A stretch of DNA of 18,378 nt from NCBI GenBank assembly GCA_040757115.1, contig JBFLYA010000066.1:1-18378 (forward strand), in the 5' to 3' direction. Source of the stretch: a bacterium. Its GTDB lineage: Bacteria > UBA9089 > CG2-30-40-21 > SBAY01. Position numbers and translations under genes: made by a program. The notes below the pieces were generated by a model that searched no databases, was not told where the DNA came from, and was given only the letters and a program-made list of their open reading frames with translations. This document shows, piece by piece, positions 1,391 to 18,252 of the stretch (the stretch's first letter is position 1; each line of letters starts with the position of its first letter).

Positions 1391-1662
1391 AGCAAAATGC
1401 AAAACTCGTTTATAGTTTAGGGTTTATAGTTTATAGTTTATAGTGTATAGTGTATAGTTTATAGTGTATAGTCCTTCAACTATAAACTATCAACTATAAA
1501 CTATCAACTATCTACTACATTTCAGCGTTAAAATACTTGAAGCAAAGATATTACTAAATTCCTCCAACTCTTTGAGAAACCCTGCTACTTCCTCTTTGAA
1601 ATTTGATTTGTAATTTTGCATTTTGATATTTATATTTGATATTTGATATTTAATATTTATTT
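1391..1662. repeat. Outer palindromic array with a second array in its loop
   Basis: A left arm (1391-1405: CAAAATG / CAAAACT units) and a right arm (1598-1662: AATTTTG / CATTTTG / ATTTGAT / ATTTAAT units) are inverted relative to each other. The 190-bp loop between them holds an independent heptamer palindrome (1408-1516). This makes up most of the 685-bp gene-free gap 1247-1931; the remainder is the miniature element at 1722-1912. Confidence 0.5.
1408..1516. repeat. Palindrome of (GTTTATA)n heptamers
   Basis: About nine tandem degenerate heptamers (GTTTATA, GTGTATA, GTTTAGG) run from 1408 to 1470. After the linker GTCCTTC they are answered by about six inverted heptamers (ACTATAA, ACTATCA) from 1476 to 1516. 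The strict 7-nt phase with variation at fixed positions is visible by eye. Single-stranded, this would fold into a long AT-rich hairpin. Confidence 0.85.
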
Positions 1663-1721
1663 GTTATCTCCCCCAAATCCTATTTTGCAGAACCCTATAC
1701 ACTATTTTAACCTTTATGCTA

Positions 1722-1912
1722 GTGTGGTGTTGAGTAAGTTTTGCACGGGGTATCATCAGGTTTCGTAACCTGCAAACGGATAATTGGTAACTGGTAATTG
1801 GTAATTGGTTAAATAGCTTCGTCGTGAGCTCAGCCGAACGGTATTTAATTACCAATTACCAATCACCAGTTACCAGAATCAAATTCCGTGCGTTATTTGT
1901 TCACCACGACAC
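1722..1912. mobile_element. 191-bp miniature transposon (IS630-like, CTAG target)
   Basis: Terminal inverted repeats start GTGTGGTGTTGAG at the left and end CACCACGACAC at the right; 19 of the outer 27 positions match. The element is flanked by TA on both sides (1720-1721, 1913-1914), and C before and G after reconstitute a CTAG target, as known for IS630-type insertions. It encodes no protein. Its centre is a palindromic heptamer array (1781-1875). A short reading frame over this region is made of repeat sequence and is not a gene. Confidence 0.75.
1781..1875. repeat. Palindrome of (GGTAATT)n heptamers in the miniature element
   Basis: Left arm 1781-1812 with GGTAACT and GGTAATT units, a unique linker, then inverted units (ACCAATT, ACCAATC, ACCAGTT) to 1875. 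The same unit recurs as a short solo copy at 3204-3222. Translated, such repeats give QLPITNY-like peptides, which recalls the heptameric STRR repeats known from filamentous cyanobacteria. Confidence 0.85.
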
Positions 1913-1931
1913 TAGAAGCAGGATGCTTATG

Positions 1932-2462
1932 TTACTTTAAATCTTCCATAAGGTCTTTCTGGATAAGTTTTAGCACCTCGACATTATTTATTGGGATTTC
2001 ATCCAAATCTGCCTTTATTTTGTCCGTATCCAGAGAATAAGTTAAGTTTTCTTTTTTATGTTGATAAAAAAAGTCTATTTCTGGATTTCCGGCTATGAGC
2101 GTCATTATTGTTTGTTTCATATCGCCGATGGGTTTGCGGTCGATATGACTATGTTTGAAACTCGCGGTAATTTTAGTTCCAATCCCTTTTTTTGATTTTA
2201 TTTCAAATTTGCCGTCACATTCATTCGCCGCCTGAGCAAGCAATGAAAGCCCTAAACCGACCTTTCGTGTTTTTTTAGTCGTAAAAAACGGGTCTGTGGC
2301 TTTTTTAACCGTTTCTTCATCCATTCCAAAACCATCATCGTTCATCTCGATTTTTAGCACATCTTTTTTTAAATTTTCGTCAATCTTTATTTTGACCCTT
2401 TTTGCCCCAGCTCGAATTGAGTTTTCAACTATGTCCAGAATATGTAATGATAAATCTTCCAC
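1932..2462 (-). CDS. Kinase-type ATPase (HATPase_c) without phosphoacceptor domain
   Basis: 176 residues containing essentially one GHKL/HATPase_c domain. Visible motifs are the N box VENSIRAGA (Glu13, Asn14), the G1 box DDGFGMD (residues 42-48), the F/G2 region DPFFTTKKTRKVGLGLSLL (57-75) and a G3-like GIGTKITASF. There is no dimerisation/His-phosphotransfer domain or sensor domain, so it is not a complete histidine kinase. It may bind or phosphorylate a partner, as anti-sigma kinases do. The GTG start lies 15 nt after the stop of the PHP gene, with no strong Shine-Dalgarno, suggesting translational coupling. Genes of this type accompany PHP and DRTGG genes next to [FeFe] hydrogenases in Clostridia. 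A role in hydrogenase regulation is inference. Confidence 0.8.
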   Translation of the reverse strand: MEDLSLHILDIVENSIRAGAKRVKIKIDENLKKDVLKIEMNDDGFGMDEETVKKATDPFFTTKKTRKVGLGLSLLAQAANECDGKFEIKSKKGIGTKITASFKHSHIDRKPIGDMKQTIMTLIAGNPEIDFFYQHKKENLTYSLDTDKIKADLDEIPINNVEVLKLIQKDLMEDLK

Positions 2463-2477
2463 TTTACTTTTGTGTCT

Positions 2478-3191
2478 CTAAATCTTTAATGTAGTTTTTA
2501 ATAAAGCCTTTTTTATTTCTTTTACCATTGGTTTTTTTAGTGAAAATTGAGTCCATGTTTTACCAATATCCGCTAAAAAATGGGCATCAGAGCCTGTAAT
2601 TACAGGAAATTCTTTTACTGTCAATTTATCCTTTGTTATGTTTGGCGATATTTCGACAGCATCTAATTCTAACCCTTCTGGAATAAAGCCCAATTGCCCA
2701 ATAATTCCAAATCCTTCACGGTCAATATGTGAGGCAATGGCAATGCCATTAAGCGAATGAATTGCCTCAACACATTTTTCAATCGTTAATTTAGTTGCTC
2801 CAATCAAAAGCCTCTGGTTATGCCTTACAATTTCGTCATCTTCATTAACCACTAATTGTAATCCAAAGGCATTCTCGTCATTTACACCTGGTAAGTTTTC
2901 ATAGACAAGTTCTTGTAATTTTAGTAGGTCATCATCATTATCAAAAAGGGCTAATAGATGTACTTCTTCTGATGTTGTAATCTCAATTCCCCCAATAACC
3001 GTTATCTCAAAGGTTTTGCCAATTTTTTTACTAATCAAGACATTTTCGGCTGAATTATGGTCGCAGATACCGATTATATCTAATTTTTTTGACTTTGCCG
3101 TATTTATTATTCGTTTTGGTGTCATATCCAGGTCCCCACAAGGAGAAAGGCAGGTATGGATATGCAAATCTGTATTAAATATTTTAAGCAT
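2478..3191 (-). CDS. PHP-domain metal-dependent phosphoesterase
   Basis: 237 residues spanning one PHP domain, a TIM-like metal hydrolase fold related to histidinol phosphatase and the polymerase III PHP domain. Metal-ligand motifs are in order: DLHIHT (His10, His12), CDHNS (Asp44, His45), GIEITT, ASHIDREG and GSDAH (Asp202, His204). The substrate is unknown; relatives hydrolyse phosphate or nucleotide phosphate esters. It sits between a DRTGG gene and an orphan ATPase in the hydrogenase-linked series. Its ATG comes 10 nt after the preceding stop, and the leader is repeat-derived (CAGTTAGCAATCCCAAA), with no recognisable Shine-Dalgarno, so translation may depend on coupling. Confidence 0.88.
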   Translation of the reverse strand: MLKIFNTDLHIHTCLSPCGDLDMTPKRIINTAKSKKLDIIGICDHNSAENVLISKKIGKTFEITVIGGIEITTSEEVHLLALFDNDDDLLKLQELVYENLPGVNDENAFGLQLVVNEDDEIVRHNQRLLIGATKLTIEKCVEAIHSLNGIAIASHIDREGFGIIGQLGFIPEGLELDAVEISPNITKDKLTVKEFPVITGSDAHFLADIGKTWTQFSLKKPMVKEIKKALLKTTLKI

Positions 3192-3201
3192 TTTGGGATT
3201 G

Positions 3202-3540
3202 CTAACTGGTAATTGGTAACTGATATAATTTCCCTACTAACTCAAAAGTTGATAATTTACTGACTAAAATAGGAATTTTTTCATGGATTGCCTTTTGTAG
3301 TGTATCTTCGTCTGGCTGACGATTATTAACTAAGATAATCCCTCTAATCTCTTTCAAGGAAGCCACGGCCACGATATTTTGATGTATTTGTAAAGTTACC
3401 CAGATATTTCCTTCCCTGGCATTTGCCATCACATCCGATAACAGGTCAGAGACATAGCCGCCGGTAACTTCCTTGTCTAACATTTCCGGTGCAGATTTAA
3501 CCTCTAAATTTAATTTTTCAACTATTTCCTTTAACTTCAT
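3202..3540 (-). CDS. DRTGG-domain protein (first copy)
   Basis: 112 residues forming a single DRTGG domain, a small alpha/beta module of unknown ligand, often annotated as a serine-kinase-of-HPr-like regulator. It aligns along its length with the protein encoded at 4531-4887: both start MKL(K/R)E, share SDVxxxxxxG, a central IRGI/IKAI strand and KxIPxLV, and end in a (G)KLYQ or (G)RLYQ motif. After LYQ this copy ends LPITS and a stop, and those codons are read from the heptamer repeat at 3204-3222, so the native C-terminus has been replaced. It starts 75 nt after the CBS-ATPase stop, with a hairpin in between. Confidence 0.75.
   Translation of the reverse strand: MKLKEIVEKLNLEVKSAPEMLDKEVTGGYVSDLLSDVMANAREGNIWVTLQIHQNIVAVASLKEIRGIILVNNRQPDEDTLQKAIHEKIPILVSKLSTFELVGKLYQLPITS
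3204..3222. repeat. Solo copy of the (GGTAATT) heptamer repeat
   Basis: Three units (AACTGGT / AATTGGT / AACTGAT) identical in type to the palindromic array at 1781-1875. It overlaps the last five codons and stop of the DRTGG gene and fills the leader of the PHP gene. No inverted partner arm is seen here. Confidence 0.75.
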
Positions 3541-3561
3541 TTTTCACCGTTTATAGAGGTT

Positions 3562-3610
3562 AGAGGTCAGATTTTAAAGATATTACCTTAATATCTGTTC
3601 TCTGACCTCT
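3562..3610. repeat. Intercistronic palindrome of ~7-nt (GAGGTCA) units
   Basis: AGAGGTCAGA (3562-3571) pairs with TCTGACCTCT (3601-3610), and inside it AGATATTA (3578-3585) pairs with TAATATCT (3589-3596) around a 3-nt loop. Flanking GAGGTTA and TCTACTC extend the 7-nt phase. It lies between the CBS-ATPase stop and the DRTGG start. It lacks a U-tract typical of an intrinsic terminator, so attenuation or mRNA processing are only possibilities. Confidence 0.7.
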
Positions 3611-3615
3611 GTTTT

Positions 3616-4530
3616 CTACTCTAAATTTATAATAATTTCAATTTGAGTTCCTTGACCTACTTTTGAATTGATGGAGAATTTATCAGCACACTTTTTAATA
3701 TTGACCAGTCCCATACCTGCACCAAAACCCATTTCTCGAATCCAATCTGGTGCGGTAGAGAAGCCGGGTTGCATTGCTTGTTCAACATCAGGTATGCCAG
3801 GTCCAGAGTCTATCACGGAAAGCTTAATCTGCCTGGGTTGAATATTAGCGATAATCTTGCCTTGAGATGTAAAAATAACAATATTCATCTCCGCTTCATA
3901 ACTGGCAATAGCTAACCGACGAATTACCTGCGGACGGATACCTAATCGTGTCAGTGTTTTTTTGAGACGGCTTGATGACTCTCCCGCTCGCTTAAAATCA
4001 TTTCCAACAATATTATATTGTAAAATTATCCTTGATTCATCGGCAATAATATCCTCAAAGAAATGACTTGCTCGAAGTCGCTTAATCTCCTCCTCATAAT
4101 ATTCATGTTCTAATCTTTGCAATAGCCCATGAATAATATCTCCTTTGGTTATAATCCCAACTAATTTACCATTTTCTCTTGCAACTACCGGAAATCTTCC
4201 ATAATTTAATTTCTCGAATTTATTAATGGCGTGGATAAGTGGTTCATCCTCGTATAAAGTTTGTATAGATTGAGTCATTTTTTGTGAAACAGGGATTTCC
4301 ATTTCTCCATCTAATAAACATTTAATAAAATCTTCAAGACTAATAATCCCAACTAATTTACCTTTATCTACAACCGGTGTTCCTGAGATACGGTTATCTC
4401 TCAAAATTTCACGCAAGTCAGCGATTAAATTATTCGGACTAACAGTAATAACCTCTTTTTTCATTACCTCGCCAACTTTTAATTCATAAGCCAGTTCTTG
4501 AATTACACTAATTTTTTCTTTTGCATCCAT
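3616..4530 (-). CDS. CBS-pair protein with RsbW-type ATPase domain
   Basis: 304 residues with two modules. Residues ~18-135 are two CBS motifs (MKKEVITVSPNN...GTPVVDKGKLVGIISLEDFI and MTQSIQTLYEDEP...GRFPVVARENGKLVGIITKGDI), an adenine-nucleotide-binding sensor. After a charged linker (~140-165), residues ~170-304 are a GHKL ATPase of the anti-sigma-factor (RsbW/SpoIIAB) type, with N box YEAEMNIVIF, G1 box DSGPGI and lid GFGAGMGLVNIKK. The combination suggests a protein that reads adenylate or NAD(H) charge and acts on a partner by binding or phosphorylation; the partner is not in the window. The stop of the upstream DRTGG gene directly abuts its ATG, so the two are tightly coupled. Confidence 0.85.
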   Translation of the reverse strand: MDAKEKISVIQELAYELKVGEVMKKEVITVSPNNLIADLREILRDNRISGTPVVDKGKLVGIISLEDFIKCLLDGEMEIPVSQKMTQSIQTLYEDEPLIHAINKFEKLNYGRFPVVARENGKLVGIITKGDIIHGLLQRLEHEYYEEEIKRLRASHFFEDIIADESRIILQYNIVGNDFKRAGESSSRLKKTLTRLGIRPQVIRRLAIASYEAEMNIVIFTSQGKIIANIQPRQIKLSVIDSGPGIPDVEQAMQPGFSTAPDWIREMGFGAGMGLVNIKKCADKFSINSKVGQGTQIEIIINLE

Positions 4531-4887
4531 TTATTCTTCTATCTCTGAGCACCCGGGTAATCCTTTTTGATATAATCGACCACAGGACTCATACATCGGT
4601 AAATTAGTGACTAATAATGGGATATTTTTTTCTTTTGCCATGTCAATTGTTTCTGGGGGTGGTTTTTTACCACGCACAAAACAAATTGCCTTTATATCAG
4701 ATATCTCTGCGGTCCGAATTACCTGGGAATTAGTGAGACCTGTGAGAAGTAATGCCCTGGCTTTAGTAAAGGATAAGACATCACTCATTAAATCCGCGCC
4801 ACAAGCCATCTTTACTTCTATTTCTAAACCAGAGGTATCTGTAAGAATTTCAGCCTCTAAAATTTCTTTTAGTTCTCTAAGTTTCAT
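4531..4887 (-). CDS. DRTGG-domain protein (second copy)
   Basis: 118 residues, one DRTGG domain, paralogous to the protein at 3202-3540. It shows MKLRELKEIL, a region GADLMSDVLSF, a central strand IKAICFVRGKKP, KEKNIPLLVTNLPMYE and the LYQKGL end that the other copy has lost. Function is unknown; DRTGG domains also occur between CBS and ATPase domains in larger proteins, so this one may be a detached partner of the CBS-ATPase that follows with zero spacing. Its ATG overlaps the end of the nucleotidyltransferase-like gene by 4 nt, indicating one transcript and coupled translation. Confidence 0.75.
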   Translation of the reverse strand: MKLRELKEILEAEILTDTSGLEIEVKMACGADLMSDVLSFTKARALLLTGLTNSQVIRTAEISDIKAICFVRGKKPPPETIDMAKEKNIPLLVTNLPMYESCGRLYQKGLPGCSEIEE

Positions 4888-5360
4888 TTATTTTCCCTTT
4901 TTTGCATTTCTTGCCATTTTTCAAGATACTTAATATCTATCGTATCTTTATATCTATCTGTTTTCTTTAATTTAATCAAATCCTCAACACAAGGCACATT
5001 TACCTGAAATCCTGTTTCATCTGTAATTACTTCCTTACGGTTATACATTTCTTCAAATGAAATAGTTTCTCCTTCTTGAATAATCTTTTTTTTAGCCCGA
5101 AACACATCAATAGATACATCATTTTCTAATTTAAACATAAAATATGATTCCATCTCGTCTAATTTTTTAGATGGAAACAGGTCAAACTTCTCTGCTATTT
5201 CAAGGAAATTTTTGGTATTTTCTCTACTTCCATCAATATAAAGGTCGTAATCCATTGTTTGGACAGGTATACCATAGGCAATCATTGCCTGTCGTCCTAT
5301 CAGAAGATACTTAATATGAGCATTATGAATTGCGGCAATAAACTCAACCGGGTCTGTCAT
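4884..5360 (-). CDS. Nucleotidyltransferase-fold protein (MNT/AbiEii-like)
   Basis: 158 residues with the signature of the polymerase-beta-type nucleotidyltransferase fold: GRQAMIAYGIP (22-32) in place of the usual GG/GS motif, the metal-binding pair DYD (Asp37, Asp39) and a third Asp at residue 85 (SIDVF). The C-terminal part VNVPCVEDLIKLKKTDRYKDTIDIKYL is typical of family members that follow a small partner gene. The second glycine of the motif is Arg23, so activity is uncertain. It overlaps the small upstream gene by 17 nt and the downstream DRTGG gene by 4 nt. Such pairs often behave as toxin-antitoxin-like modules, but no such activity is shown here. Confidence 0.7.
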   Translation of the reverse strand: MTDPVEFIAAIHNAHIKYLLIGRQAMIAYGIPVQTMDYDLYIDGSRENTKNFLEIAEKFDLFPSKKLDEMESYFMFKLENDVSIDVFRAKKKIIQEGETISFEEMYNRKEVITDETGFQVNVPCVEDLIKLKKTDRYKDTIDIKYLEKWQEMQKRENK

Positions 5361-5526
5361 TTTCCACCTTTTTTAATTTGCTAAATTTAATCGCGGCAAG
5401 GGTATGTCTATATCCAATTTGTAATCTCTTTTTAACGCCAAACTTAGAAAGCCAGGTAATTAGATTTTCCATTTCTTTTTCTTCATCCTCCTGTGTTGGT
5501 AGAGGTATCGTATCTTTATCAATCAT
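5344..5526 (-). CDS. Small unknown protein paired with the nucleotidyltransferase
   Basis: Not recognised. Starting at the ATG at 5524-5526 it gives 60 residues, acidic at the start (PTQEDEEKEMENL) and basic in the second half (KKRLQIGYRHTLAAIKFSKLKK). A longer reading starting at 5565 is open but would place the start inside the -35 box of the promoter at 5537-5565, so it is rejected. The expected transcript start, about 5530, would make the message nearly leaderless. A later Met at about 5472, with AGGAGG 14 nt upstream, is an alternative. It overlaps the nucleotidyltransferase gene by 17 nt, which supports a functional pair. Confidence 0.5.
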   Translation of the reverse strand: MIDKDTIPLPTQEDEEKEMENLITWLSKFGVKKRLQIGYRHTLAAIKFSKLKKVENDRPG

Positions 5527-5536
5527 CTTAAAAATT

Positions 5537-5565
5537 ATATTATCACAATATCCTGAAAAAGTCAA
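5537..5565 (-). promoter_or_regulatory. Sigma70-type promoter of the minus-strand gene series
   Basis: On the minus strand, TTGACT (5560-5565) and TAATAT (5537-5542) are separated by exactly 17 nt. This is a good housekeeping-type promoter and is the only one I see for the long series that runs down to the ATPase gene. It fixes the start choice of the first small gene. Confidence 0.65.
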
Positions 5566-5584
5566 TTTTTATTTTAAAAAATTC

Positions 5585-5612
5585 TTGACAACAACTTATT
5601 ATTTATGATAAT
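5585..5612 (+). promoter_or_regulatory. Sigma70-type promoter of argG-xseB
   Basis: TTGACA (5585-5590), a 16-nt spacer and GATAAT (5607-5612) with a preceding T-rich stretch. Transcription would start about 35 nt before argG, whose leader carries AGGGG before the ATG. Its -35 box lies only 19 nt from the -35 box of the divergent promoter. No ARG-box-like operator was recognised. Confidence 0.6.
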
Positions 5613-5652
5613 CTTAATAGTGCTTTATGAAATAAAAAGGGGATGAAGAAAG

Positions 5653-6825
5653 ATGAAAAAAATTGTTTTGGCATATTCTGGTGGGTTAGATACCTCCGTG
5701 ATGATTAAATGGTTAAAAGACAATTATGATGTTTTGGTGATTGCCGTAGCCATAGATTTAGGTCAGGGAGAAGATTTTGATAAATTGCACTCAAAGGCAA
5801 TATCAAGCGGGGCGGATAAGATTTATATTGAGGATGTCAAGGATGAATTTATTAATCAATATATCTTTCCTGCATTAAAGGCAAATGCGATTTATGAAGG
5901 TAAGTATTTATTAGCAACTTCACTTTCTCGACCTTTGATTGCCAGGAAATTAGTTGAGGTTGCCAAAAAGGAGAATGCAGATACTGCCGCACATGGTTGC
6001 ACGGGTAAAGGCAATGACCAGGTTCGGTTTGAGGTGACAATTTCAGCTCTGGCTCCAGAACTAAAAATTTTAGCCCCTGCCAGAATATGGGAATTTAAAA
6101 GTCGTGAGCAAGAGATTGAATATGCGATAAAACACAATATCCCGGTGCAAGTAACCAGGGAGAGCCCGTATAGCATTGATAAAAACCTGTGGGGAGTAAG
6201 TATTGAGTGTGGTCCATTAGAAGACCCCTGGGTAGAACCACCAGAAGATGCTTATCAAATAACTACCGCTCAATCACCAACAGAACCAACTTATTTAGAA
6301 ATAGCGTTTGAAAAAGGAATTCCGGTAAAACTAAATAATGAGGAGTATGCCTCAGTAAAGTTAATCCAGAGATTAAACGAAATAGGTGGGAAATATGCCA
6401 TTGGACGGGTTGATGTAGTTGAGAATAGACTTGTTGGAGTGAAGTCACGAGAGGTTTATGAGGCACCAGCCGCGACTATTTTATTTGAGGCACATAAGGC
6501 ATTAGAATCATTAGTGTTAGATAGAGAAACAATTCATTTTAAAGAAATAATCAGCTTGAAATACGCTGAATTGATATATTATGGATTATGGTATTCGCCA
6601 TTAAAATCTGCATTAGACGGATTTGTCGAAAAGACACAAACTAATGTTACGGGTAAAATCAGAGTAAAACTTTTACCTGGCAAGGCAATCGTGGTTGGTC
6701 GAGCATCCGCATATTCACAATACCGCTATGAATTAGCCACATACAGCCAGGATGATACCTTTGACCATCAAGCCGCTGAAGGATTTATCAAAATCTTTGG
6801 TTTACCGTATAAAGGAATAGGTTAA
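5653..6825 (+). CDS. argG: Argininosuccinate synthase
   Basis: 390 residues, full length for ArgG (about 400). It catalyses ATP-dependent condensation of citrulline and aspartate to argininosuccinate, the penultimate step of arginine synthesis, in the cytoplasm. The N-terminal pyrophosphatase-type ATP loop AYSGGLDTSV (7-16) is present, followed by HGCTGKGNDQVRFE, the SPYSIDKNLWG segment and a C-terminal oligomerisation region ending in the FGLPYKGIG tail. No other arginine gene is in the window, and argH does not follow. xseB begins 2 nt after the stop, so the two are cotranscribed. Confidence 0.97.
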   Translation: MKKIVLAYSGGLDTSVMIKWLKDNYDVLVIAVAIDLGQGEDFDKLHSKAISSGADKIYIEDVKDEFINQYIFPALKANAIYEGKYLLATSLSRPLIARKLVEVAKKENADTAAHGCTGKGNDQVRFEVTISALAPELKILAPARIWEFKSREQEIEYAIKHNIPVQVTRESPYSIDKNLWGVSIECGPLEDPWVEPPEDAYQITTAQSPTEPTYLEIAFEKGIPVKLNNEEYASVKLIQRLNEIGGKYAIGRVDVVENRLVGVKSREVYEAPAATILFEAHKALESLVLDRETIHFKEIISLKYAELIYYGLWYSPLKSALDGFVEKTQTNVTGKIRVKLLPGKAIVVGRASAYSQYRYELATYSQDDTFDHQAAEGFIKIFGLPYKGIG

Positions 6826-6827
6826 AC

Positions 6828-7489: not shown

Positions 7490-7638
7490 TTAGGGACGGA
7501 TTATTTTCGTCGTTTTTCCCTGTGATTTCTTTTGGAAATTAGAAATTGGAAATTAGGTCTTCACTTCTTTCCCCAATTTCTAATTTCATATTCATTTTTT
7601 AACCGCAATCTTTCACACTAAAATGAACCGTCTCTAAA
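7490..7638. mobile_element. 149-bp miniature element inside the transposase remnant
   Basis: Inverted ends are TTAGGGACGGATTATTTT at the left and the complement of TTTAGAGACGGTTCATTTT at the right. It is flanked by AT on both sides (7488-7489, 7639-7640), consistent with a 2-bp target duplication. It encodes nothing and carries a palindromic heptamer array at its centre (7534-7586). Confidence 0.7.
7534..7586. repeat. Palindrome of (GAAATTA)n heptamers in the miniature element
   Basis: Units GGAAATT / AGAAATT / GGAAATT at 7534-7554, a linker (GTCTTCACTTCTTTCC), then inverted AATTTCT / AATTTC units. It has the same sense-linker-antisense plan as the arrays at 1408, 1781 and 10564, but with a different unit. 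Confidence 0.75.
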
Positions 7639-8061: not shown

Positions 8062-8069
8062 CTTAGCGT

Positions 8070-8669: not shown

Positions 8670-10437
8670 ATGTATCTTGATTATAAAACTACAAGATATA
8701 AAGACAAAATATATAAATCCTACTTGATCGTTGAATCCTATCGAGAGAAAGGCGAAGTAAAAAAGAGACCTTTATGGAAAATCGGTAAATTAACTGATAA
8801 TCAAGTTGCCCAAATAAAATTAATTTGTAAGTCACAAACTGATAAAGAGTTTGCCGTAACTGAGCTTAAAAATGTCATCCCTCTACAGAGCAAACCATAT
8901 TTGGAGCTTGCTGTTGTAAATGAACTATGGAATCAAGGGGAACTATCAAGGGTATTTAGAACTAATATTACTAAAGGAGATTTACCAACACCTCTTGTAG
9001 CAAGAGTTCTTACGATCAATAGATGTGTTGATCCTTGTTCTAACTATTCTATTCCCCCAATGGATAAGAAAAACCGCCGTATCTGAAATTCTGGGAATCT
9101 GTCTTGATAAACTTAATGATGACAAGATCTATTATGAACTCGACAAGATAGAAGAAAATAAGAACCATCTTGAAGATCATCTCTTCAGGATGACATATAG
9201 GAAAGACCCGTCAAGTTATACTATAGTCAATTATGATCTCTCTTCTTCCTATTTTGTTGGATTCAAATGCAAACTTTCCGCATTTGGTAGAAGCAAAGAT
9301 GATAAACATGGTAATAAACAAGTTATAGTGGGTTTGCTGGTAAATGATAAAGGATACCCTTTCTCTTGGGATGTTTACCCTGGTAATACGGCTGAAGTGC
9401 ATACCTTAACAGATAAGGTAGACATCTGCCGTAAGCGTTTCAAGATGAAAGATATTACCCTGGTATTTGATCGTGGCATAGTATCCGATGACAACCTGGA
9501 ATACATCACAGATAAAAAGCTAAAATACATATCTTGTCTTGATAAAGATCAGATACAAAATGTTCCTGGAATTGATTTATCTATTTTCAAGGTATTAACT
9601 ACCAAGGATTTATCTGAGAAACAACTCTCTATATTAGGGCTTGACAAATATGACCAGGATTTGTGGTTCAAAGACCTTGGAGAAAAGGAAAATCGTCGAT
9701 ATATACGTGGACTTAACCCAACACTGTTTAAAGAGGAAAGAGAATCTCGGATTGAGAAGCTCAGATGTTTTGAAGAATTTGTCGAGAAAAAGAATGTAGA
9801 GCTTAAATCGGCTAAACGCTCAAGAGGTTATGAAGCCACTAAAAACTGTATCATAAACGAGCTCAAAAGATTAAAGACAAAGAAATATTTTAATGATGAA
9901 CCAGTTCTTGAGGAGATAGAGATTCAACCTATAGATAAAGATGGTAAAAAAGGTAGTCTCATAAAATCATATCAGGTATCAATAGAGAGAAATGAGGTTA
10001 ATATTGATAAGGATGAATTAGTAGAGGGCCTTTGTGTATTTGTTTCTAATCATATTCAAAAGAAAGAGGAAGATGTCATTTTCAGCAGTGAAAGAATAAT
10101 AAAGGCTTATCGGGATAAAACAAAGATTGAGGATGCTTTCAAACATATTAAATCATTCTTAAAGATACGTCCCTTCTTCGTCAATACCGATAAGCACGTC
10201 AGAGCTGTTTATACCGTATCCGTGGTCTCATATTTCATTAATAAGGACTTAGCAGAAAGACGTAAACAGATAGAAGGTATTGACTACCTTAATTCTAAAA
10301 ACCTTTATGAACCCTTTAGAGGTTATGATTGGATTAAGCTCAAAGATACATTGTCTGGTAAAACGAAAGGAGAGGAGGTTTGGTTGAGTGAAGAACAAAA
10401 AAGATTATTGAACAATCTAAATATAAACATTCAATAA
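8670..10437 (+). pseudogene. IS1634-family DDE transposase, two frames joined by a +1 shift
   Basis: The first frame (8670 to about 9056) encodes the N-terminal domain (YLIVESYREKGEVKKRPLW, ending TINRCVDPCSNYSIP). The second (from about 9058 to 10437) continues QWIRKTAVSEILGICLDKL and holds the catalytic core: NYDLSSSYF (first Asp), LVFDRGIVSDDN (second Asp) and YRDKTKIEDAFKHIKSF (Glu). Together they make about 588 residues, normal for the family. The junction is at CCCCC (9054-9058): reading ATT CCC then skipping one C gives CAA TGG, matching the family PQW/ARW region. Either a one-base expansion has inactivated the gene or a +1 shift on ATT-CCC-CCA makes the full protein. All catalytic residues are intact, so decay is recent or absent. 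Confidence 0.85.
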
Positions 10438-10446
10438 GAAAATTAT

Positions 10447-10491: not shown

Positions 10492-10494
10492 CTA

Positions 10495-10692
10495 GTGTAG
10501 CGTTCTCTAAATACATATAATAGTTATTAACGAAAATTTCTCATAGAACAGATATAGCAACAGGGTTGATGGTTGATAGTTTATAGTTGATAGTTTCATA
10601 GACTATCAACCATCAACTATCAACAATACTAATGTGAACTTTTGGTTAATACTTACTATAATATTGTTATATCTACTTAGAGAACGCTCTAC
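10495..10692. mobile_element. 198-bp miniature transposon (IS630-like, CTAG target)
   Basis: The left end GTGTAGCGTTCTCTAA and the right end (reverse complement GTAGAGCGTTCTCTAA) are inverted repeats that stay similar for about 26 bp (22 matches). TA flanks both sides (10493-10494, 10693-10694) within CTAG. No ORF. A palindromic heptamer array fills the centre (10564-10625). It sits immediately after the IS1634 right end. Confidence 0.75.
10564..10625. repeat. Palindrome of (GGTTGAT/AGTTTAT)n heptamers
   Basis: Five sense heptamers (GGTTGAT, GGTTGAT, AGTTTAT, AGTTGAT, AGTTTCA) are followed, after a 3-nt linker, by inverted ACTATCA / ACCATCA / ACTATCA units. The unit is related to the array at 1408-1516. 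Confidence 0.85.
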
Positions 10693-10727
10693 TAGTTATA
10701 AATATTTTTCCGGAAGTGGGGTTAGAA

Positions 10728-11191
10728 GATAAAATACCCAATCTTTATCCAATGAAGATTTACCGTTGTTTAAAAAGGCATAATTTGAATATCGTGCCTG
10801 AAGAGTTTATTAATGCTGAAAGAAAGATTAAGAAGTTTCGCAAATATACTATGGGATACCTTCATATGGATTTACTTTATGCTCCAAAGATTAACAAGGA
10901 AAGAAACTATATTTACACTGCTATTGATAGGGTGGCTAAAATTGCTTTTGTAATGATAGGTAAAAGAAAGAATAAAGAAACAGGGGCTATATTTCTAAAA
11001 CAAGCCTGTCCTTTCTATCCTTACAAGATTAACTATATCCTAACTGACAATGGAGCTGAATTTAGTTATAAAGCATTGCCAAAAGGAAAGAAGACCAAGA
11101 AAACTCACTCTTTTGACAAGATTTGTCAAGAAAACAAAATACAACATCGAACTATCAAATTCAAACATCCGTGGACTAATGGAATGATAGA
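10728..11191 (+). pseudogene. IS481-family transposase, 3' part, truncated
   Basis: Continues the frame broken at 8339. It encodes the end of the second helical domain (IPNLYPMKIYRCLKRHNL) and the rve/DDE integrase core: MGYLHMDLLYAP (first Asp), DNGAEF (second Asp) and HPWTNGMIE (catalytic Glu). After the Glu the homology stops at about 11191 and the frame runs 13 more codons through unrelated DNA to a stop at 11231. The C-terminal tail after NGMIE(R) is missing, replaced by the broken end of the opposite-strand IS701-like gene. The apparent GTG start at 10716 lies in the right end of the inserted element and is not the native start. Confidence 0.8.
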
Positions 11192-11194
11192 GAT

Positions 11195-11663
11195 TAGCTA
11201 TTTTCAGACACCACCAGAAAAGGGAGCTTGACGATGATGCCAAGTGTAACCCAGTTCTGTCCTCATATAAGCACAGGAAGTATTTTTGTAGAAAGGACAG
11301 GATCTCTAAATATACCTGCACCTGATATCTTTTCCCACTCTTGGCGAATAGGGTATCATTACCCACAGTATGATCAATGCTTCCTTCTCGGATAAGGGTG
11401 GAAACGATCATTTTCAATACTCCATAAACTAAATGGTTAATGTCCCATTTAGCCCTTTTGAAGAAATTGTAAAAACAACTATGATGTTTTCTTTTGGGTG
11501 CACCTCCTGTCTGAATTATTCGGGTGATAGTCTTTCGACCTGGGGTTAGCAACCAACCAATAATTAGAGTCACAAAGTTCTCGAAACTTTGTTTATTTTT
11601 GAAAGAATTTGTAAAAGTATTCAAAATTTGATAGAAAGTTGTCGATAAATATAATAGGCTCAT
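11195..11663 (-). pseudogene. IS701-like DDE transposase, N-terminal fragment with frameshift
   Basis: From the ATG at 11663 the first ~112 residues read like the N-terminus of IS701-type transposases: SFENFVTLIIGWLLTPGR, KHHSCFYNFFKRAKW and the first catalytic region VGNDTLFAKSGKR. Homology then shifts frame near 11320. The shifted frame reads SGAGIFRDPVLSTK, has an in-frame TGA, then GQNWVTLGIIVKLPFL, the expected continuation. Homology ends at about 11195, against the IS481 fragment. The open frame beyond it to 11040 is only the antisense of IS481. So there is a frameshift, a stop and loss of the C-terminal two thirds: a dead fragment. Confidence 0.78.
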
Positions 11664-11871: not shown

Positions 11872-13104
11872 ATGTTCTCAATTTTAAAATTAGCGGGAAA
11901 AAATATTTTTCGAAATAAACGAAGGACAACTATTACACTATTAGCTATATTTGTAGGTATAGGTAGCGTCGTAATTAGTAAAGGAATAGTCGCAGGTTTT
12001 CAGAAAGGAATAATTGACTTAGTCACAAGAGTAAAAACAGGACATATTCAGATTCATACTAAAGGATATTTAGATGCTTTACAATTAATGCCATTAAGGT
12101 TGTACATCAAAGAATTAAAGAAGACAGAGAAGATAATAAGAAAACAGAAAGAGGTAGTTCATTATGCTAGAAGAATTAACTTTACAGGAATGCTTTCTAC
12201 TGGAGAAGAATCTACTATGTTTATGGGAATAGGAATAGAACCAAAGAGCGAATTTAAAATATGTAGAGATTTACTATCAGGAATTATAAAAGGGAAGGAG
12301 TTAAAGGGATTTTCTCCTTACTCTGCTTTAATCACTAACCAGTTAGCGAAAGGCTTACAAGTAGATGTGGGTGATACTATTATGCTTATATCACATACAA
12401 TAAATGATACAATGAATGCTGTTGATGTACAAGTTGAAGGAATAGTACAAATTGGCACCCCAGTCTTTTTTAGTGGGAATATGTTGATCACTACATTGGC
12501 AGCTGCTCAGAAACTTCTTGATATGAAAGGTAAAGTAACAGAAATAATAATTGGTATTGATAAGATTGAGAATTTAGAAAATGTTGCAGAGACTCTCCGT
12601 GGTAAGTTTAATACGAAGAGAATGAATTTAGAAGTGCATACTTGGAAAGACATAGTTCCCTACTATAAGGATACTATACAGGCTCAAAATGTGATACTTT
12701 GGATTATAGTTCTGATTTTACTAATTATAATAGGGACAAGTATAATGAATACAATGATGATAGCAGTATTTGAGAGGACACGAGAAATAGGTGTAATGAT
12801 GGCAATAGGAACTGAAAGAATGCAAATTTTTTTACTTTTCCTTTTTGAATCATTATTCACTGGAGTAATTGGGAGTTTCATTGGATGTGTAAGTGGAGCA
12901 TTGTTTGTTTGTTATTTAAATATAATAGGGATTACTATCAATCTTTCTGGGGAATTAAGATCTGTAACTTTTTATCCGTATGTAACAGAGAATAATATTA
13001 CATTTTCCTTCTTATTTGGTATTTTTGTATCAATTATATCAGGAATCTATCCAGCCTATTTAGCCTTACAATTAAAACCTGTTGATGCTTTGAGATATGT
13101 ATAG
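11872..13104 (+). CDS. ABC transporter permease, FtsX/LolE-MacB type
   Basis: 410 residues with the LolC/E and MacB permease plan: a short N-terminal amphipathic start (LAGKNIFRNKRRTTITLL), first membrane helix at ~21-43, a large extracytoplasmic domain (~45-270), then three C-terminal membrane helices at ~274-297, ~320-352 and ~376-397. The conserved coupling segment MMIAVFERTREIGVMMAIG and the C-terminal motif YPAYLALQLKPVDALRY are present. Such permeases extract or export lipids, lipoproteins or peptides, and need an ATPase subunit. None is encoded nearby, and mobile debris lies directly upstream, where it may have been lost. The Shine-Dalgarno AGGAA lies 10 nt before the ATG. The dikinase gene follows 60 nt later. 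Confidence 0.87.
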   Translation: MFSILKLAGKNIFRNKRRTTITLLAIFVGIGSVVISKGIVAGFQKGIIDLVTRVKTGHIQIHTKGYLDALQLMPLRLYIKELKKTEKIIRKQKEVVHYARRINFTGMLSTGEESTMFMGIGIEPKSEFKICRDLLSGIIKGKELKGFSPYSALITNQLAKGLQVDVGDTIMLISHTINDTMNAVDVQVEGIVQIGTPVFFSGNMLITTLAAAQKLLDMKGKVTEIIIGIDKIENLENVAETLRGKFNTKRMNLEVHTWKDIVPYYKDTIQAQNVILWIIVLILLIIIGTSIMNTMMIAVFERTREIGVMMAIGTERMQIFLLFLFESLFTGVIGSFIGCVSGALFVCYLNIIGITINLSGELRSVTFYPYVTENNITFSFLFGIFVSIISGIYPAYLALQLKPVDALRYV

Positions 13105-13164
13105 TATAATATTTGAGTTCTTAGTTAGCGTTATCTATATCTTCATTAAAAAAGAGAGTTAAAA

Positions 13165-15882
13165 ATGGTAAAAAAATACCAATTATTCAAAAAGGGAATT
13201 CTATCCAATAAATACATTCGAGATCTTAATAATATTACTATTAATGACATCTCTTTAGTAGGGAGTAAAGGTGCTAAGTTAGGGGAAATGAAAAAGGCAA
13301 AATTCCCTGTACCACCAGGATTTTGTATTACAGCTGATGCTTATGAATATTATCTCCAATATAATGAAATCCAAGATGAGATTGTTAAAATAGTAAAGGA
13401 TACATTTATATCTTTTTCTTCTCTTAAATCAGAAGCTTATAAGATAAAAAACCTTATTTTATCTGGGCATATACCATTAGAGCTCAGAAATGAAATTATA
13501 TCAGCTTATCACAAATTAAGAGGATATGTATCTATTCGTTCATCTGCTACTTATGAAGATTTATCTATAACTTCCTCTGCTGGGATATATGATACTTATC
13601 TCAATATAATTGGTGAGAATGAAGTACTTAAGAAGGTAGTTGAAGTTTTTGCATCTTTGTGGAGTGAACGAGCTATTTCTTATCGAGAGGCTAAGTTTTC
13701 TAAGAATGAGGTTACTATAGGAATTCCAAAGATGGCAGTTATAATACAACAGATGATTTCAGCACAAGTTTCTGGTATAATTTTCACTTCCAACCCTGTC
13801 GATAAAGATTTGGTGATCGAAGGAAGCTTTGGATTGGGTGAGATAATTGTAAAAGGTAAAGTTACTCCGGATAGATATGTGATTAATAAAAGAACATTGA
13901 AGATAAGCGAAAAAACACTCTCTACTAAGGATGTAATGATAATTCCTGATCAGAGTCCTAATCAAGTATCTATGGGAGTTCTTGAGATCTATGTTCCTCA
14001 AGAGAAAAAAGATAGGCAAATTCTATTAGATCGAGAGATAAAAAAATTAGCAAGGTTGGGTTTAAATATCGAGAGATATTATAGAGTCCCTCAAGATATT
14101 GAATGGGCTTATAATAAAGGTAAGTTTTATATCTTACAAACAAGACCAGTTACTGCTATCCCAGAAAAAGTAACTATATGGAGCAACTTTAATTGGAATG
14201 AGATAATTCCAGGAGTATTATCTCCCTTTACTTGGTCAATGTTAAATGAAGTAATTCAGAATATGATAAAACATATAATGAGAAAATTTGGATTTCCTCC
14301 TGTTGAGTTACCACCTATAATAGAGTTGCTTTATGGTCGGGTATATTGGAATATGAATAATCTATTAGAAGTATTTAAAGACCTATCTTTTTTTGAAGAG
14401 ATTGGGGGAAAAGAAGCAATATTGGCTGTTGGGGAAAAAGTACCTAATTTTAGAATTAAGATAATATTGATGTGTCTGCAGATTTTTAGATTCAATATAT
14501 TCAAACTCTTAAATGTTATTTATAAAATCAGTTGTATTTTCTTTAAGATGCACCGTGATATAGAGAAGGTATACTTCCAAGTTAGAAAGACTTTTGATAA
14601 GTTTGAAAAAGTTGATCTTTCAAAAATCTCTTTAGAAGAATTATTATCCTTTAGAATATTGTATAGTGAAGAAGCAAAGGAAGTAATGCTTGCTAATGTA
14701 CTAGGGGGTGGATTAGTTATATCTTCTTATCAATTACTTGGTAAAATAACTAAGCGATGGCTTGATGATAAGGATGGAATACTCCAAGCAAAATTAATAG
14801 GTGGAATGTTAGATGAGACTGTCAAAATGGATATTGAAATCTGGAAATTAGCACAAAAGGCTTCAACTTCTGAATATATCAATTCTATTTTTAGTGAGAG
14901 AAATGAGGAAGAAATTATTAGTTTATTAAAAGAAAAGGGAGAAGGAAGGGAGTTCTTAATTAAATTAAAAGAATTTCTATCTGAATATGGACATCGATGT
15001 AGTATGGAATATGATTTTATGGTACCCAGATGGATAGAAGAACCAAGGTTTATCTTAAGTATGATAAAGAATTATCTCAAGAATAAAGTAAGTGAAGAGG
15101 GGTTAGTTGTTAATCCTATTAGACACTTGAAAAATAAAGCAATAGAACAGGAAAAAATAATTCTTAAATCTTTAGAAAAGTTATCATCAGGAATCTTTAA
15201 TAAATTATTTCCCATAAAGAGATTCATTTTCAAGAAGGCCATTCAGAACCTTCAAAGAAACCACTCTTTACGGGAGACACCAAAATTTTATGCAATGATG
15301 CTATGGATGGCTGCAAGAATGATGATTTTAGAGGTAGGTAATCGTTTATTTGAAGAAGGAGTTCTTTTAAGTAAAGACGATATTTTCTTCTTGAATATAA
15401 ATGAGACAAGAAAATTAGTAAAAGGGGAATTCAGTAAAAAAAAGGCTCTACAATTAGTAACTGAACGTAGGCAAGAATATGAACATAACCTTAAACTTAA
15501 ACCGCCATCAATTATTAGAAGTGATTCTTTTCTCACTTTTGAAGAAGAGAAGTTGGAATCTTCATCTTATCTGGAAGGAGTAGGTGTATCACCTGGTAAA
15601 GTAACTGGGAAGGCAAGGATAATTTTTGATATAAATAAGTCTTGGAATTTAAGGAAAGGTGAAATATTAGTAGTACCTTATACTGATCCAGCGTGGACAC
15701 CCCTATTTTTGATAGCAGCAGGAGTGATAACAGATATTGGAGGTTTACTTTCTCATGGTGCCATTATTGCTAGAGAATATGGCATCCCTGCTGTGATGGG
15801 TGTAAAAAATGGAACTAAGACGATAGAAGAGGGGAGAACGATCACCGTCGATGGAAATGAAGGAAGGGTTTATCTTTATTAA
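13165..15882 (+). CDS. Rifampin-phosphotransferase/PEP-synthase-like dikinase
   Basis: 905 residues in three parts. The N-terminal ATP-binding domain (~25-335) shows GSKGAKLGEM, PVPPGFCIT, SIRSSATYEDL, AGIYDTYL, QQMISAQVSGIIFTSNP and DIEWAYNKGKFYILQTRP. A variable middle domain (~345-800), opening NEIIPGVLSPFTWSML, follows. The C-terminal swivelling domain (~815-905) has GVGVSPGKVTGKARI and the phospho-His motif GGLLSHGAIIAREYGIPAVMG (His864). The SHGAI motif and the substrate-type middle domain resemble rifampin phosphotransferase (about 865 residues) more than PEP synthase (about 790), whose motif is usually TCHAAI. It may transfer the ATP beta-phosphate to a small molecule; the substrate cannot be inferred. 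It has a weak Shine-Dalgarno and sits between a permease and a radical SAM gene. Confidence 0.85.
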   Translation: MVKKYQLFKKGILSNKYIRDLNNITINDISLVGSKGAKLGEMKKAKFPVPPGFCITADAYEYYLQYNEIQDEIVKIVKDTFISFSSLKSEAYKIKNLILSGHIPLELRNEIISAYHKLRGYVSIRSSATYEDLSITSSAGIYDTYLNIIGENEVLKKVVEVFASLWSERAISYREAKFSKNEVTIGIPKMAVIIQQMISAQVSGIIFTSNPVDKDLVIEGSFGLGEIIVKGKVTPDRYVINKRTLKISEKTLSTKDVMIIPDQSPNQVSMGVLEIYVPQEKKDRQILLDREIKKLARLGLNIERYYRVPQDIEWAYNKGKFYILQTRPVTAIPEKVTIWSNFNWNEIIPGVLSPFTWSMLNEVIQNMIKHIMRKFGFPPVELPPIIELLYGRVYWNMNNLLEVFKDLSFFEEIGGKEAILAVGEKVPNFRIKIILMCLQIFRFNIFKLLNVIYKISCIFFKMHRDIEKVYFQVRKTFDKFEKVDLSKISLEELLSFRILYSEEAKEVMLANVLGGGLVISSYQLLGKITKRWLDDKDGILQAKLIGGMLDETVKMDIEIWKLAQKASTSEYINSIFSERNEEEIISLLKEKGEGREFLIKLKEFLSEYGHRCSMEYDFMVPRWIEEPRFILSMIKNYLKNKVSEEGLVVNPIRHLKNKAIEQEKIILKSLEKLSSGIFNKLFPIKRFIFKKAIQNLQRNHSLRETPKFYAMMLWMAARMMILEVGNRLFEEGVLLSKDDIFFLNINETRKLVKGEFSKKKALQLVTERRQEYEHNLKLKPPSIIRSDSFLTFEEEKLESSSYLEGVGVSPGKVTGKARIIFDINKSWNLRKGEILVVPYTDPAWTPLFLIAAGVITDIGGLLSHGAIIAREYGIPAVMGVKNGTKTIEEGRTITVDGNEGRVYLY

Positions 15883-16138
15883 TTTTGACTTTTATTACGT
15901 CAGAGGAATTAAAAAGGATGTCTTGTAATTACAATAGATTATATCTGACTATTTCAGTTGTACATACGGTTCTAATTCAACTTGTCCTAATGAGTTCAAT
16001 AGGTTAATCAAAAAGTTTGCATACAAAAAAAGTTTCTGGCTTTTCATACAATAAGAGAACTGTTGTTCTTCAAAACATTTTTATCCAAAAGAAATCATAA
16101 GAAAATGTGCAGGAATATACTATCCTATAGGAGTTAAA
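15883..16138 (+). other. Gene-free spacer with leader of the radical SAM gene
   Basis: 256 bp of AT-rich sequence with no ORF of note and no inverted repeats long enough to be a terminator. A small stem GAACTGTTGTTC occurs near 16058. A good Shine-Dalgarno, TAGGAGTTAAAATG, leads into the next gene. No consensus promoter was seen, although the spacing suggests a separate one. Confidence 0.4.
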
Positions 16139-17698
16139 ATGAAAGTAGTATTTGTAAATTCACCAAGGTATGTACATCCTATTATGTATGAGACAAATGA
16201 TTATTTGATGCCTTTAAATTATCCATGTTTAGCAGCAGCTATACGGGATAAAATGGAGGATATTGAAGTAAAAATTATTGACTGTCCACCTATGAGAATA
16301 GGCTGGAAAACTCTAAGAAAAATAATAGAAAAAGAGAAACCTGATGTAGTAGGCTGTGGAGATGTAGTTTTATATGCCCATGAAAGTGTAAAAGTCTTCA
16401 AGATAGCGAAAGAAATTAATCCTCGGTGTATTACTATCGCTGGGGGACATTTTTTTTCCTTCATGGTAGAGAAAGGTCTAAAGGAATATATGGCAGATTA
16501 TATTGTAAGATTCGAAGGTGAAGAAACGATAGTAGAACTCCTTGAATATCTTAGGAATAATAGAGACTTGGAAAAGGTCAAAGGAATTGGTTTTAAAAGA
16601 GAGGGGAAGATTATTATTACCCCTCCAAGACCTCTTATTAAAAATCTTGATGAATTACCTATACCAGCTTTTGATCTTATGGTTATGGAGAAACCTTCTT
16701 CTTTTGGCATGACTTGGTTAAATGCAGGAGTGCTTGAAAAGTCTCGAGGATGTATAGATCACTGTAATTACTGTTCCCTATGGAAAGTAATGGGTCAATA
16801 TTCTATTAAGCAAGATGGGAAGGAAGAAGTGAAACCTTGTTATAGGCAAAAGAGTGTTGAGAGAGCTATTGAAGAAGTAGAAATTCTTTACCACAAATAC
16901 AAAAAGCGATATCTTTTCTGGGTTGATGCTACATGGAATGTTGCTCCTGAATGGACAGATGCTTTTTGTGAAGAGGTACTAAAGAGGAAAATGAAGTTTA
17001 ATTACTGGGCTTTTCTCAGAGCAGATTGTCTACTACAAGATGAAAAACTGGGAATTTTAGAAAAGATGGTCAAAATAGGACTTAAGCATGCTCTTATAGG
17101 TATTGAAAGATCATCAACAGAATCATTACAAACTTTGCAAAAGTCAAGATGTACTTATGAACAGACAAAAGAAGTCTTCGAAGTTCTTAGAAAAAAATAT
17201 CCTCAAGTTATTAGAGTAGGGACATTTATAGCTGGAGTAGAAAATGAGACTAAAGAATCAATCATGGATTTGGCAAATTATGCTCTTGATCTTAAATTGG
17301 ACTACATAGAGCTTTTTACTTTAACTCCTAACCCGGGGACTACCATCTGGAGAGAGTGTGTAAGAAAAGATTGGATTGAAATTAAAGATTATAAACAATG
17401 GGACTGGCGTACACCCATAATGCCATCAGAATATATGTCTAGGGAGGAAATAGCAAATACTATTGAAAAAGCTCTAAGAAAATTCTATCATTTAAAGCAT
17501 CTAATATTTAGACAACTCCTTTCCCCTATCAGTTTACGGAGAAAGACTGCCTTTTGGATCATTTATATCACTATAAAGTTTATGACTCTTCATATTGCAA
17601 ATTTATTAAAAGGTATTTTTGAGGGTAAGAAAGATTTAAAGTCCTCAAAAATACTAAAGGTAGAAAAAGTGATAAAGCCTAAATGGTATGATACATGA
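16139..17698 (+). CDS. B12-binding-domain radical SAM protein
   Basis: 519 residues. The N-terminal ~135 residues have a cobalamin-binding-like Rossmann domain (MKVVFVNSPR, PDVVGCGDVVLYAHESVKV, CITIAGGHFFSF, EGEETIVELL), but the classical DxHxxG loop is not visible, as in several members. A linker (LDELPIPAFDL) leads to the radical SAM core with SRGCIDHCNYC: Cys205, Cys209 and Cys212 in the CxxxCxxC arrangement that binds the 4Fe-4S cluster. The core continues with FWVDATWNV, GLKHALIGIERSS, GTFIAGVENETKESI and LFTLTPNPGT, typical of class B/BchE-like enzymes. The C-terminal ~90 residues are basic and include a hydrophobic stretch (AFWIIYITIKFMTLHIA), suggesting membrane contact. It may methylate, cyclise or otherwise modify a lipid or natural product; the substrate is unknown. 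Confidence 0.9.
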   Translation: MKVVFVNSPRYVHPIMYETNDYLMPLNYPCLAAAIRDKMEDIEVKIIDCPPMRIGWKTLRKIIEKEKPDVVGCGDVVLYAHESVKVFKIAKEINPRCITIAGGHFFSFMVEKGLKEYMADYIVRFEGEETIVELLEYLRNNRDLEKVKGIGFKREGKIIITPPRPLIKNLDELPIPAFDLMVMEKPSSFGMTWLNAGVLEKSRGCIDHCNYCSLWKVMGQYSIKQDGKEEVKPCYRQKSVERAIEEVEILYHKYKKRYLFWVDATWNVAPEWTDAFCEEVLKRKMKFNYWAFLRADCLLQDEKLGILEKMVKIGLKHALIGIERSSTESLQTLQKSRCTYEQTKEVFEVLRKKYPQVIRVGTFIAGVENETKESIMDLANYALDLKLDYIELFTLTPNPGTTIWRECVRKDWIEIKDYKQWDWRTPIMPSEYMSREEIANTIEKALRKFYHLKHLIFRQLLSPISLRRKTAFWIIYITIKFMTLHIANLLKGIFEGKKDLKSSKILKVEKVIKPKWYDT

Positions 17699-17988
17699 AG
17701 AAATCTAAATCCAGTTATAAGGACTTCTGCAAAATGGGAAAATAAATAATAGAAGGAAGAAAGAGGTATTTTGAGAATAAAAAAGGGATTTTAAACAAGA
17801 TTTGTGGGAAAGAAGAAGAGGTTTATTAAAAAAGACAATAATTTCCCTATGAGAGGAACAAATCGCTCTTTAAAAATTACTTTTTTAGTTCTTCAGGCAG
17901 CCGTAGATAAGGCAGAATCGTGTGCAAAGATGCGATAACACCTAATTTTCTGTGGTTGTTTTAATAAGAGAGCGGCATCATAATCTAC
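17699..17988. other. Gene-free AT-rich spacer
   Basis: 290 bp between the radical SAM gene and the IS630-like element. I see no ORF, tRNA, terminator hairpin or periodic array here. A purine-rich stretch (about 17740-17830) is the only visible character. Confidence 0.4.
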
Positions 17989-17990
17989 TA

Positions 17991-18252
17991 GTGCTCTGTC
18001 GCTACTTAATTGATGGATAAACCCGTTTCAAAAAATAGATATTGAAACAAGTTGATTTGAAATTCATAGAAATATGGTAGAAATTAGTTGAAATTTATAG
18101 AAATTGATGGAAATTGGTAGAAAGATGGTGCAAGAAAACAATAAGTTTCTATTTATTTCTACTAATTTCAATTATATTTCCATAAGTTTTATATTATTAT
18201 TGACAAAGAATGCTTAAGAAAAATATTAATCAAATCATTGGCGACAGAGCAC
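17991..18252. mobile_element. 262-bp IS630-derived miniature element
   Basis: Ends GTGCTCTGTCGC and GCGACAGAGCAC are perfect 12-bp inverted repeats, flanked by TA (17989-17990, 18253-18254) with C before and G after, giving a CTAG target. The right ~70 bp match, inverted, the first ~70 bp of the IS630-family element that begins at 18255, so this is a deletion derivative of that family. Its centre is a decamer-periodic palindrome (18041-18190). No ORF. Confidence 0.8.
18041..18190. repeat. Palindrome of ~10-nt (GAAATTNATA) units
   Basis: Sense units GAAATTCATA, GAAATTAGTT, GAAATTTATA, GAAATTGATG, GAAATTGGTA run to 18128. After the linker GTGCAAGAAAACAATAAG, inverted units TTTCTATTTA, TTTCTACTAA, TTTCAATTAT continue to 18190. 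The period is 10 nt rather than 7, and the linker and right arm match positions 5-54. Confidence 0.8.

Follow-up and report, generated by a model that had tools for sequence, protein, structure and literature searches.

Palindromic short-unit arrays of an SBAY01 genome as probable remnants of gene-bearing hairpin elements

Elements of the window

The window analysed here is one entire contig (JBFLYA010000066.1, 18,378 nucleotides) of the 4.3-Mb draft genome of a bacterium of the GTDB lineage UBA9089; CG2-30-40-21; SBAY01. It contains several short elements, most of them resembling miniature inverted-repeat transposable elements (MITEs), with a centre made of degenerate 7- or 10-nt units arranged as a palindrome. 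Four such elements and three further arrays had been described in a first-pass annotation, and all of them were found to exist. Their exact ends, which we re-read in the window, are slightly shifted compared with the earlier coordinates. The features are as follows.

1..122, minus strand: right portion of an element of a 237-bp family, with the end CACCTGAACGCTTAC at 108-122
123..271, no strand assigned: leftover of a TA-flanked palindromic element, with the end TAGCAGTTATTAGTC and an AAATTCC/ATTTGGG array at 126-230
1319..1720 (right end approximate), minus strand: GGTGGTGTCT-ended element, with a palindromic GTTTATA/TCAACTA array at 1408-1516
1720..1914, no strand assigned: TA-flanked MITE with the ends TAGTGTSGTGTTGAG and a GGTAATT core array inverted about a loop
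3556..3611, no strand assigned: short intergenic palindrome made up of GAGGTTA/GAGGTCA units, read from the sequence
7493..7634, no strand assigned: REPIN-like element with the ends GGGACGG.../...CCGTCTC and an inverted core array of GAAATTA/GAAATTG
10493..10694, no strand assigned: outer ends TAGTGTAGCGTTCTCTAA.../...TTAGAGAACGCTCTACTA, found in only about five copies
about 10515..10661, no strand assigned: inner TA-type element with its own imperfect inverted ends and a GTTGATA/GTTTATA/GTTGATG palindromic array
17989..18254, no strand assigned: MITE with the ends TAGTGCTCTGTCGC and a palindromic core of the 10-mer GAAATTNATA

The core was an inverted array in 4/4 of the elements starting at 1720, 7493, 10515 (inner element) and 17989, and all four folded far better than dinucleotide shuffles (z = -9.65, -4.25, -5.74 and -8.23, respectively). 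The window copies sit in spacers between protein genes or insertion sequence (IS) remnants, outside rRNA genes. An Rfam search of the window matched no family.

The arrays at 126-230 and 1408-1516 had been considered as non-transposon copies; they are instead the cores of the TA-flanked and of the GGTGGTGTCT-ended element. The left end of the 123-271 element was removed by the neighbouring element that stops at 122, and a complete copy, L076:3779-3992, has an empty site in the genome of a sister species of the same genus (G001, hereafter the sister genome). The 1..122 element is itself truncated by the contig start. Its family has the ends GTAACYRTTCA/GTAAGCGTTCA, an 8-bp target duplication and a core of GGAGATA and GAAATTTATA arrays; in complete copies such as L076:397-633 the 8-bp duplication is perfect. 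The 1319-1720 element, which retains a piece of the 3' portion of a PF05635 gene, lacks its right end at the site occupied by the 1720 element. At 10493 the element is composite or nested: over 20 occurrences of the inner 147 bp lack the outer ends. IS remnants surround it at 8670-10437, 10716-11231 and 11040-11663 (DDE_Tnp_1, rve integrase core and DDE_5 matches).

The palindrome at 3556-3611 has few relatives in the searched sequences (5 subjects), and relatives of the 7493-7634 element were found in this genome and in the sister genome. The latter element is like REPIN/RAYT systems (repetitive extragenic palindromic doublets forming hairpins/REP-associated tyrosine transposases) in its inverted ends and multiple copies, but unlike a REPIN it has a long central heptamer palindrome. 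A Y1-transposase fragment is present in the genome (L072), with no link to the 7493-7634 ends shown. The core of the 17989 element is related to that of the 237-bp family, and the same end is found ahead of an HTH-transposase-like frame both at L009 and at position 18253 of the window. The match of this frame to HTH_29 was weaker than the Pfam cut-off; we take the frame to be IS630-like. The stretch 18253-18378 looks like the start of a transposase-encoding element, which abuts the 17989 MITE in opposite orientation and has the same ends.

Census, mobility and inheritance of the arrays

The census was made on samples: 40 stretches of 20 kb for the genome itself (0.82 Mb) and, for the sister genome, 40 stretches no longer than 20 kb each. 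Noncoding arrays of period 6-11 numbered 630 in the own-genome sample versus 46 in dinucleotide shuffles, and 307 versus 1 at a score of at least 40. Adjacent arrays with related units were inverted in 90 cases and direct in 7. The shared plan of inverted short units noticed at first was therefore real, and the units were diverse: a first pass already gave 48 different units among the heptamers alone. A pattern scan also detected exact GTTGATA palindromes, without gene, in 7 places (L126-L132) in Verrucomicrobia, Planctomycetes, Acidobacteria and Bacteroidota, which indicated that the GTTGATA unit is not private to this genome.

The expectation that arrays would be enriched inside elements bounded by terminal inverted repeats was borne out only weakly. 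Dispersed repeats extended on both sides of 249/423 array clusters, compared with 96/423 control windows, while flanking inverted repeats of at least 14 nt were found for 69/423 arrays and 45/423 controls. With repeats of at least 16 nt there was no clear excess (35 arrays, 30 controls). The preference for elements bounded by such repeats in general is thus weak.

Evidence for mobility was obtained by comparing orthologous loci, about 97% identical, of the two genomes. Most clean spacer insertions of 120-440 bp were palindromic-array elements with target duplications. These were AATCTCTT, AAAAGTAA and AAGAAAAG at GTAAC-ended insertions, GAAAATTA and CAAATCTG at GGTGGTGT-ended ones, and TA for the 123-271 family. 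For both the GTAAC.. and the GGTGGTGT.. end types, target duplications of 8 bp were seen and the sister species had empty sites; 8-bp duplications and empty sites were also found for sister copies of the GGTGGTGTCT-ended element. In both samples taken together, 72 elements with GTAAC-type ends had 8-bp duplications (at most 1 mismatch allowed), compared with 0.4 expected from shifted flanks. The 1720 family, with more than 60 copies across the two genomes, had TA on the left in 25/29 copies and on the right in 25/29, often as CTAG. No autonomous transposon with GTAAC ends was found in the genome, and the only IS66 transposase there is degraded. IS66, which has GTAA ends and an 8-bp duplication, is a possible candidate driver of the GTAAC ends.

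The arrays were inherited within families. Readable cores of the 1720 family measured 73, 80, 87, 94, 101 or 108 nt, i.e. a 7-nt ladder, apart from one that had expanded to 364 nt, and the length changes were almost wholly confined to one arm. In the 30 copies of the 10515 family that were read, the left arm comprised 2-10 units and the right arm about 2-6, with GTTTATA variants in the left arm only. In both families a single ancestral array was common to all readable copies. Because the arrays are inherited per family, repeated insertion into the middle of ready-made MITEs, as first proposed, can be rejected; a shared ancestral array is the very outcome that the proposal itself had named as refuting it. 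Change by whole units (the 73-108-nt cores) agrees with the first interpretation. Hairpin-templated copying from arm to arm was not seen and is rejected on this time scale, since the arms change independently.

Cores are also exchanged between ends. At least three different cores were associated with GGTGGTGTCT ends, and one of them was also found within GTAAC-ended elements. The window array at 1408-1516 stands in place of about 30 bp present in sister copies, and GGTGGTGTCT-ended copies without the GTTTATA array are found at L083, L091 and L099. A copy of the 1720 family in the sister genome (L149:19025-19489) carries some 19 GGTAACT units in one arm, where the array has expanded, and contains, inside its loop, a second palindromic element (CGCAAAGA units) accompanied by a roughly 7-bp direct repeat. 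Core exchange and nested insertion explain how the same plan can occur with changing units and changing ends. The initial idea that there is a hairpin element with changing short units, and that it is not one inserted sequence, is supported. A single insertion as the explanation was ruled out by the multiple cores per end type and by the family-wise inheritance of the arrays.

In many respects the elements are like MITEs: they are short, mostly non-coding and multi-copy, their ends are inverted, the target duplication is TA or 8 bp long, and empty sites exist. One alternative is that the founder of each family was an ordinary MITE with a chance array, then copied by transposition. The typical ends and duplications and the one array common to all readable copies of the 1720 and 10515 families would agree with this. 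Unlike MITEs, however, families with unrelated ends have a common interior plan of inverted short units; this single plan across many end types and many units, the 90 inverted versus 7 direct neighbours and the gene brackets found in other phyla (see below) already disfavour chance arrays and make them a highly improbable source.

A second alternative is that selection maintains the palindromes where they are, as binding sites or as RNA structures with a regulatory role. The strong folding and the location in spacers would fit, and heptamer repeats have been proposed as regulatory in Beggiatoaceae (PMC4679880) and Geobacter (PMC2700814). This is extremely unlikely to account for the arrays in view of the presence/absence differences in 97%-identical orthologous spacers, the free variation of unit number and sequence among copies, a turnover that argues against a general role, and the lack of any Rfam match in the window.

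Genes between inverted arrays

In samples of the two genomes, 8/2701 open reading frames (ORFs) of 60-400 aa were bracketed by inverted repeats (score of at least 20). These 8 included 3 PF05635-like (four-helix-bundle) ORFs and 1 GxxExxY ORF. PF05635 ('23S rRNA intervening-sequence protein') genes were bracketed in 21/28 cases, compared with 0/756 mismatched pairs, and in 34/53 distinct loci once more loci of this genus had been added. The best arm period was 7 in 21/34 of the bracketed loci. Several of the arrays matched window families in their units. Orthologous PF05635 genes lie between GTTGATA/GTTTATA arrays of unequal lengths in this genome (G000, L342) and in the sister genome (L362), others lie between GGTAACT arrays (L366 and L364, in this genome and the sister), and in L356, L373 and L099 (this genome and the sister) a PF05635 gene stands between arms of the 123-271 family. 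A DUF5618 gene (L143:162-539) was likewise bracketed (inverted repeat score 35), possibly as a third gene type or as an unrelated case.

Some inserts were found to carry pieces of a GxxExxY gene (PF13366/TIGR04256), encoding a predicted PD-(D/E)XK protein that only two papers of the open-licence literature searched mention, in passing. There were 65 matches to this family in the present genome, 55 in the sister genome and 0-21 in 17 other genomes searched. Intact GxxExxY genes were situated between inverted arrays. Outside this genus, full-length genes came from relatives, Acidobacteria, Verrucomicrobia, Planctomycetes, Bacteroidota, Sphingomonas and others, and 41/53 were bracketed (inverted repeats scoring at least 16 between the two flanks), versus 19/636 mismatched pairs made of flanks of different loci. 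The arms were mostly short-unit arrays, with units that match within a locus and differ between loci, and the best period was 8-10 in 35/41 bracketed loci and 7 in 0/41. The higher the identity of two proteins, the more alike their arms were (Spearman 0.38, permutation p 0.001).

The two gene types were both met in the gap of the fabD-fabG operon. The PF05635 gene of L342 and L362 is positioned between fabD and fabG, as read from the translated flanks, and on a Sphingomonas plasmid (L304) the annotated fabD and fabG genes have a bracketed GxxExxY gene between them. In GTAACTATTCACC-ended elements (L062:11525-11739 and L006:1269-1497), ATTCACC/ATTCACA arrays resemble repeats of the element's own tip, with CACGAAG units at the opposite end and a GxxExxY fragment in between.

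Elements were also found that derive from gene-bearing ones by internal deletion. The window element at 1319-1720 aligned in two blocks to the PF05635-bearing L352, from which it differs by the absence of 252 bp (L352 1058-1309); the deletion junction is overlapped by TCCTCT/TCCTTT and the residual frame is EEVAGFLKELEEF. Similarly, L064 (193 bp, with a perfect 8-bp duplication) corresponds to the intact GxxExxY element L173 minus about 261 bp. Gene remnants were detected in duplication-flanked elements (13 GxxExxY and 5 PF05635 among 106). A 546-bp gene-bearing copy, with a damaged PF05635 gene, had an empty site in the sister genome, and the search for an empty site of a second gene-bearing element yielded a partly matching site only.

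Origin of the palindromes

The finding that inverted arrays bracket two small gene families points to a source of the arrays. We consider it probable that the palindromic arrays are the stems of hairpin elements resembling the intervening sequences (IVSs) of rRNA genes, with a small gene between inverted arrays, and that the window copies have lost this gene wholly or nearly so. The ancestral plan would be a PF05635 gene, mostly with 7-nt units, or a GxxExxY gene, mostly with 8-10-nt units, and internal deletion would remove the gene and leave an ORF-less or nearly ORF-less palindrome. Such hairpins sit within different kinds of transposon ends (the TA-flanked type, and the GTAAC.. and GGTGGTGT.. 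types, both with 8-bp duplications), so that they look like MITEs with one common interior plan. Whole units are gained and lost by each arm separately, perhaps by replication slippage, and cores pass between ends through nested insertion and recombination. The transcribed hairpin may be excised by an RNase III-type activity, as in rRNA IVSs, in which case insertion between operon genes would be tolerable. All arrays may descend from gene-bearing forms, even those for which no gene-bearing relative is known (7493 and 17989, and 1720 and 10515 beyond the unit).

The closest parallel is the 23S IVS of Coxiella, which contains an S23 (PF05635) ORF, has inverted ends that pair as a stem and carries, upstream of the ORF, tandem heptamers (GACAGAT) whose copy number differs among strains; its authors called it selfish and its origin unclear (PMC4990558). 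As in rRNA IVSs (Coxiella, Leptospira), the elements described here have inverted ends that form a stem and, in gene-bearing members, a PF05635 gene in the loop with variable heptamers beside the ORF, and they show decay and deletion of this ORF. The PF05635/S23 ORF itself is present in the gene-bearing relatives of the same genus, while the window has only the remnant at 1319-1720. Unlike rRNA IVSs, the elements lie in spacers between protein genes, none of the window copies being in an rRNA gene; they are present in many copies with very different units, are often ORF-less and have transposon-like ends with target duplications, and a second gene family, GxxExxY, has the same plan. No closer description of such hairpin elements was found in the open-licence literature searched, though an earlier account may exist elsewhere. 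The IVS design itself is known; what appears to be new is its occurrence outside rRNA genes, in largely ORF-less form, within transposon ends and with a second gene family.

Several observations weigh against the derivation of the palindromes from gene-bearing hairpins. A gene remnant was detectable in just 18/106 duplication-flanked elements. Split alignment against the sequences sampled recovered no gene-bearing relative of the 7493 (GAAATTA) or 17989 (GAAATTNATA) arrays and, apart from common units, no gene-bearing homologue of the 1720 or 10515 elements. The documented target duplications and empty sites come from this genus and not from the other phyla. Finally, PF05635 protein similarity correlated weakly with arm similarity (Spearman 0.2), which suggests that the units turn over fast and are loosely linked to the gene.

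A further alternative is a generic array-building process, in which slippage and fold-back synthesis would act in any noncoding palindrome, whether MITE interior or gene bracket, inverted short-unit arrays would arise repeatedly, and the two gene families would merely be frequent passengers. Families without a known gene do exist, the 1720 and 10515 families change by whole units, a heptamer array took the place of about 30 bp within one element, and some units are like the element's own tips (ATTCACC in GTAACTATTCACC elements). We nevertheless think such a process unlikely to be the main source, because brackets surround two particular gene families in several phyla and very few other sampled ORFs, because unit length tracks the gene family, and because each arm varies on its own, without copying between arms over short times.

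The origin of the arrays from IVS-like hairpins also bears on the heptamer repeats of other bacteria, among which are the short tandemly repeated repetitive (STRR) sequences of cyanobacteria. Intergenic heptamer arrays have been reported, with no origin given, as TAACTGA repeats in Beggiatoaceae (PMC4679880) and as the heptanucleotide elements of Geobacter metallireducens (PMC2700814). Like all of these, the present arrays are intergenic tandem heptamers in many copies, scattered over unrelated lineages. In contrast to them, which have been described mainly as direct repeats, the arrays here are mostly inverted pairs (90 versus 7 direct ones) and are linked with mobile hairpins as well as with two gene families. 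As a doubtful extension, GxxExxY and PF05635 hairpins may form one widespread, unnamed mobile class, in which the protein, for example a PD-(D/E)XK nuclease recognising the arrays, would act on them and drive both spread and unit turnover; most bacterial intergenic 7-10-nt arrays would then be its debris.

Through their brackets round two gene families, the intergenic 7-10-nt arrays reported without origin in many bacteria would gain a source, and the IVS design would extend beyond rRNA genes. The exchanged cores also show that the interiors of MITEs can pass between different ends, and two protein families without known function, GxxExxY and PF05635, would be given a common, testable context.

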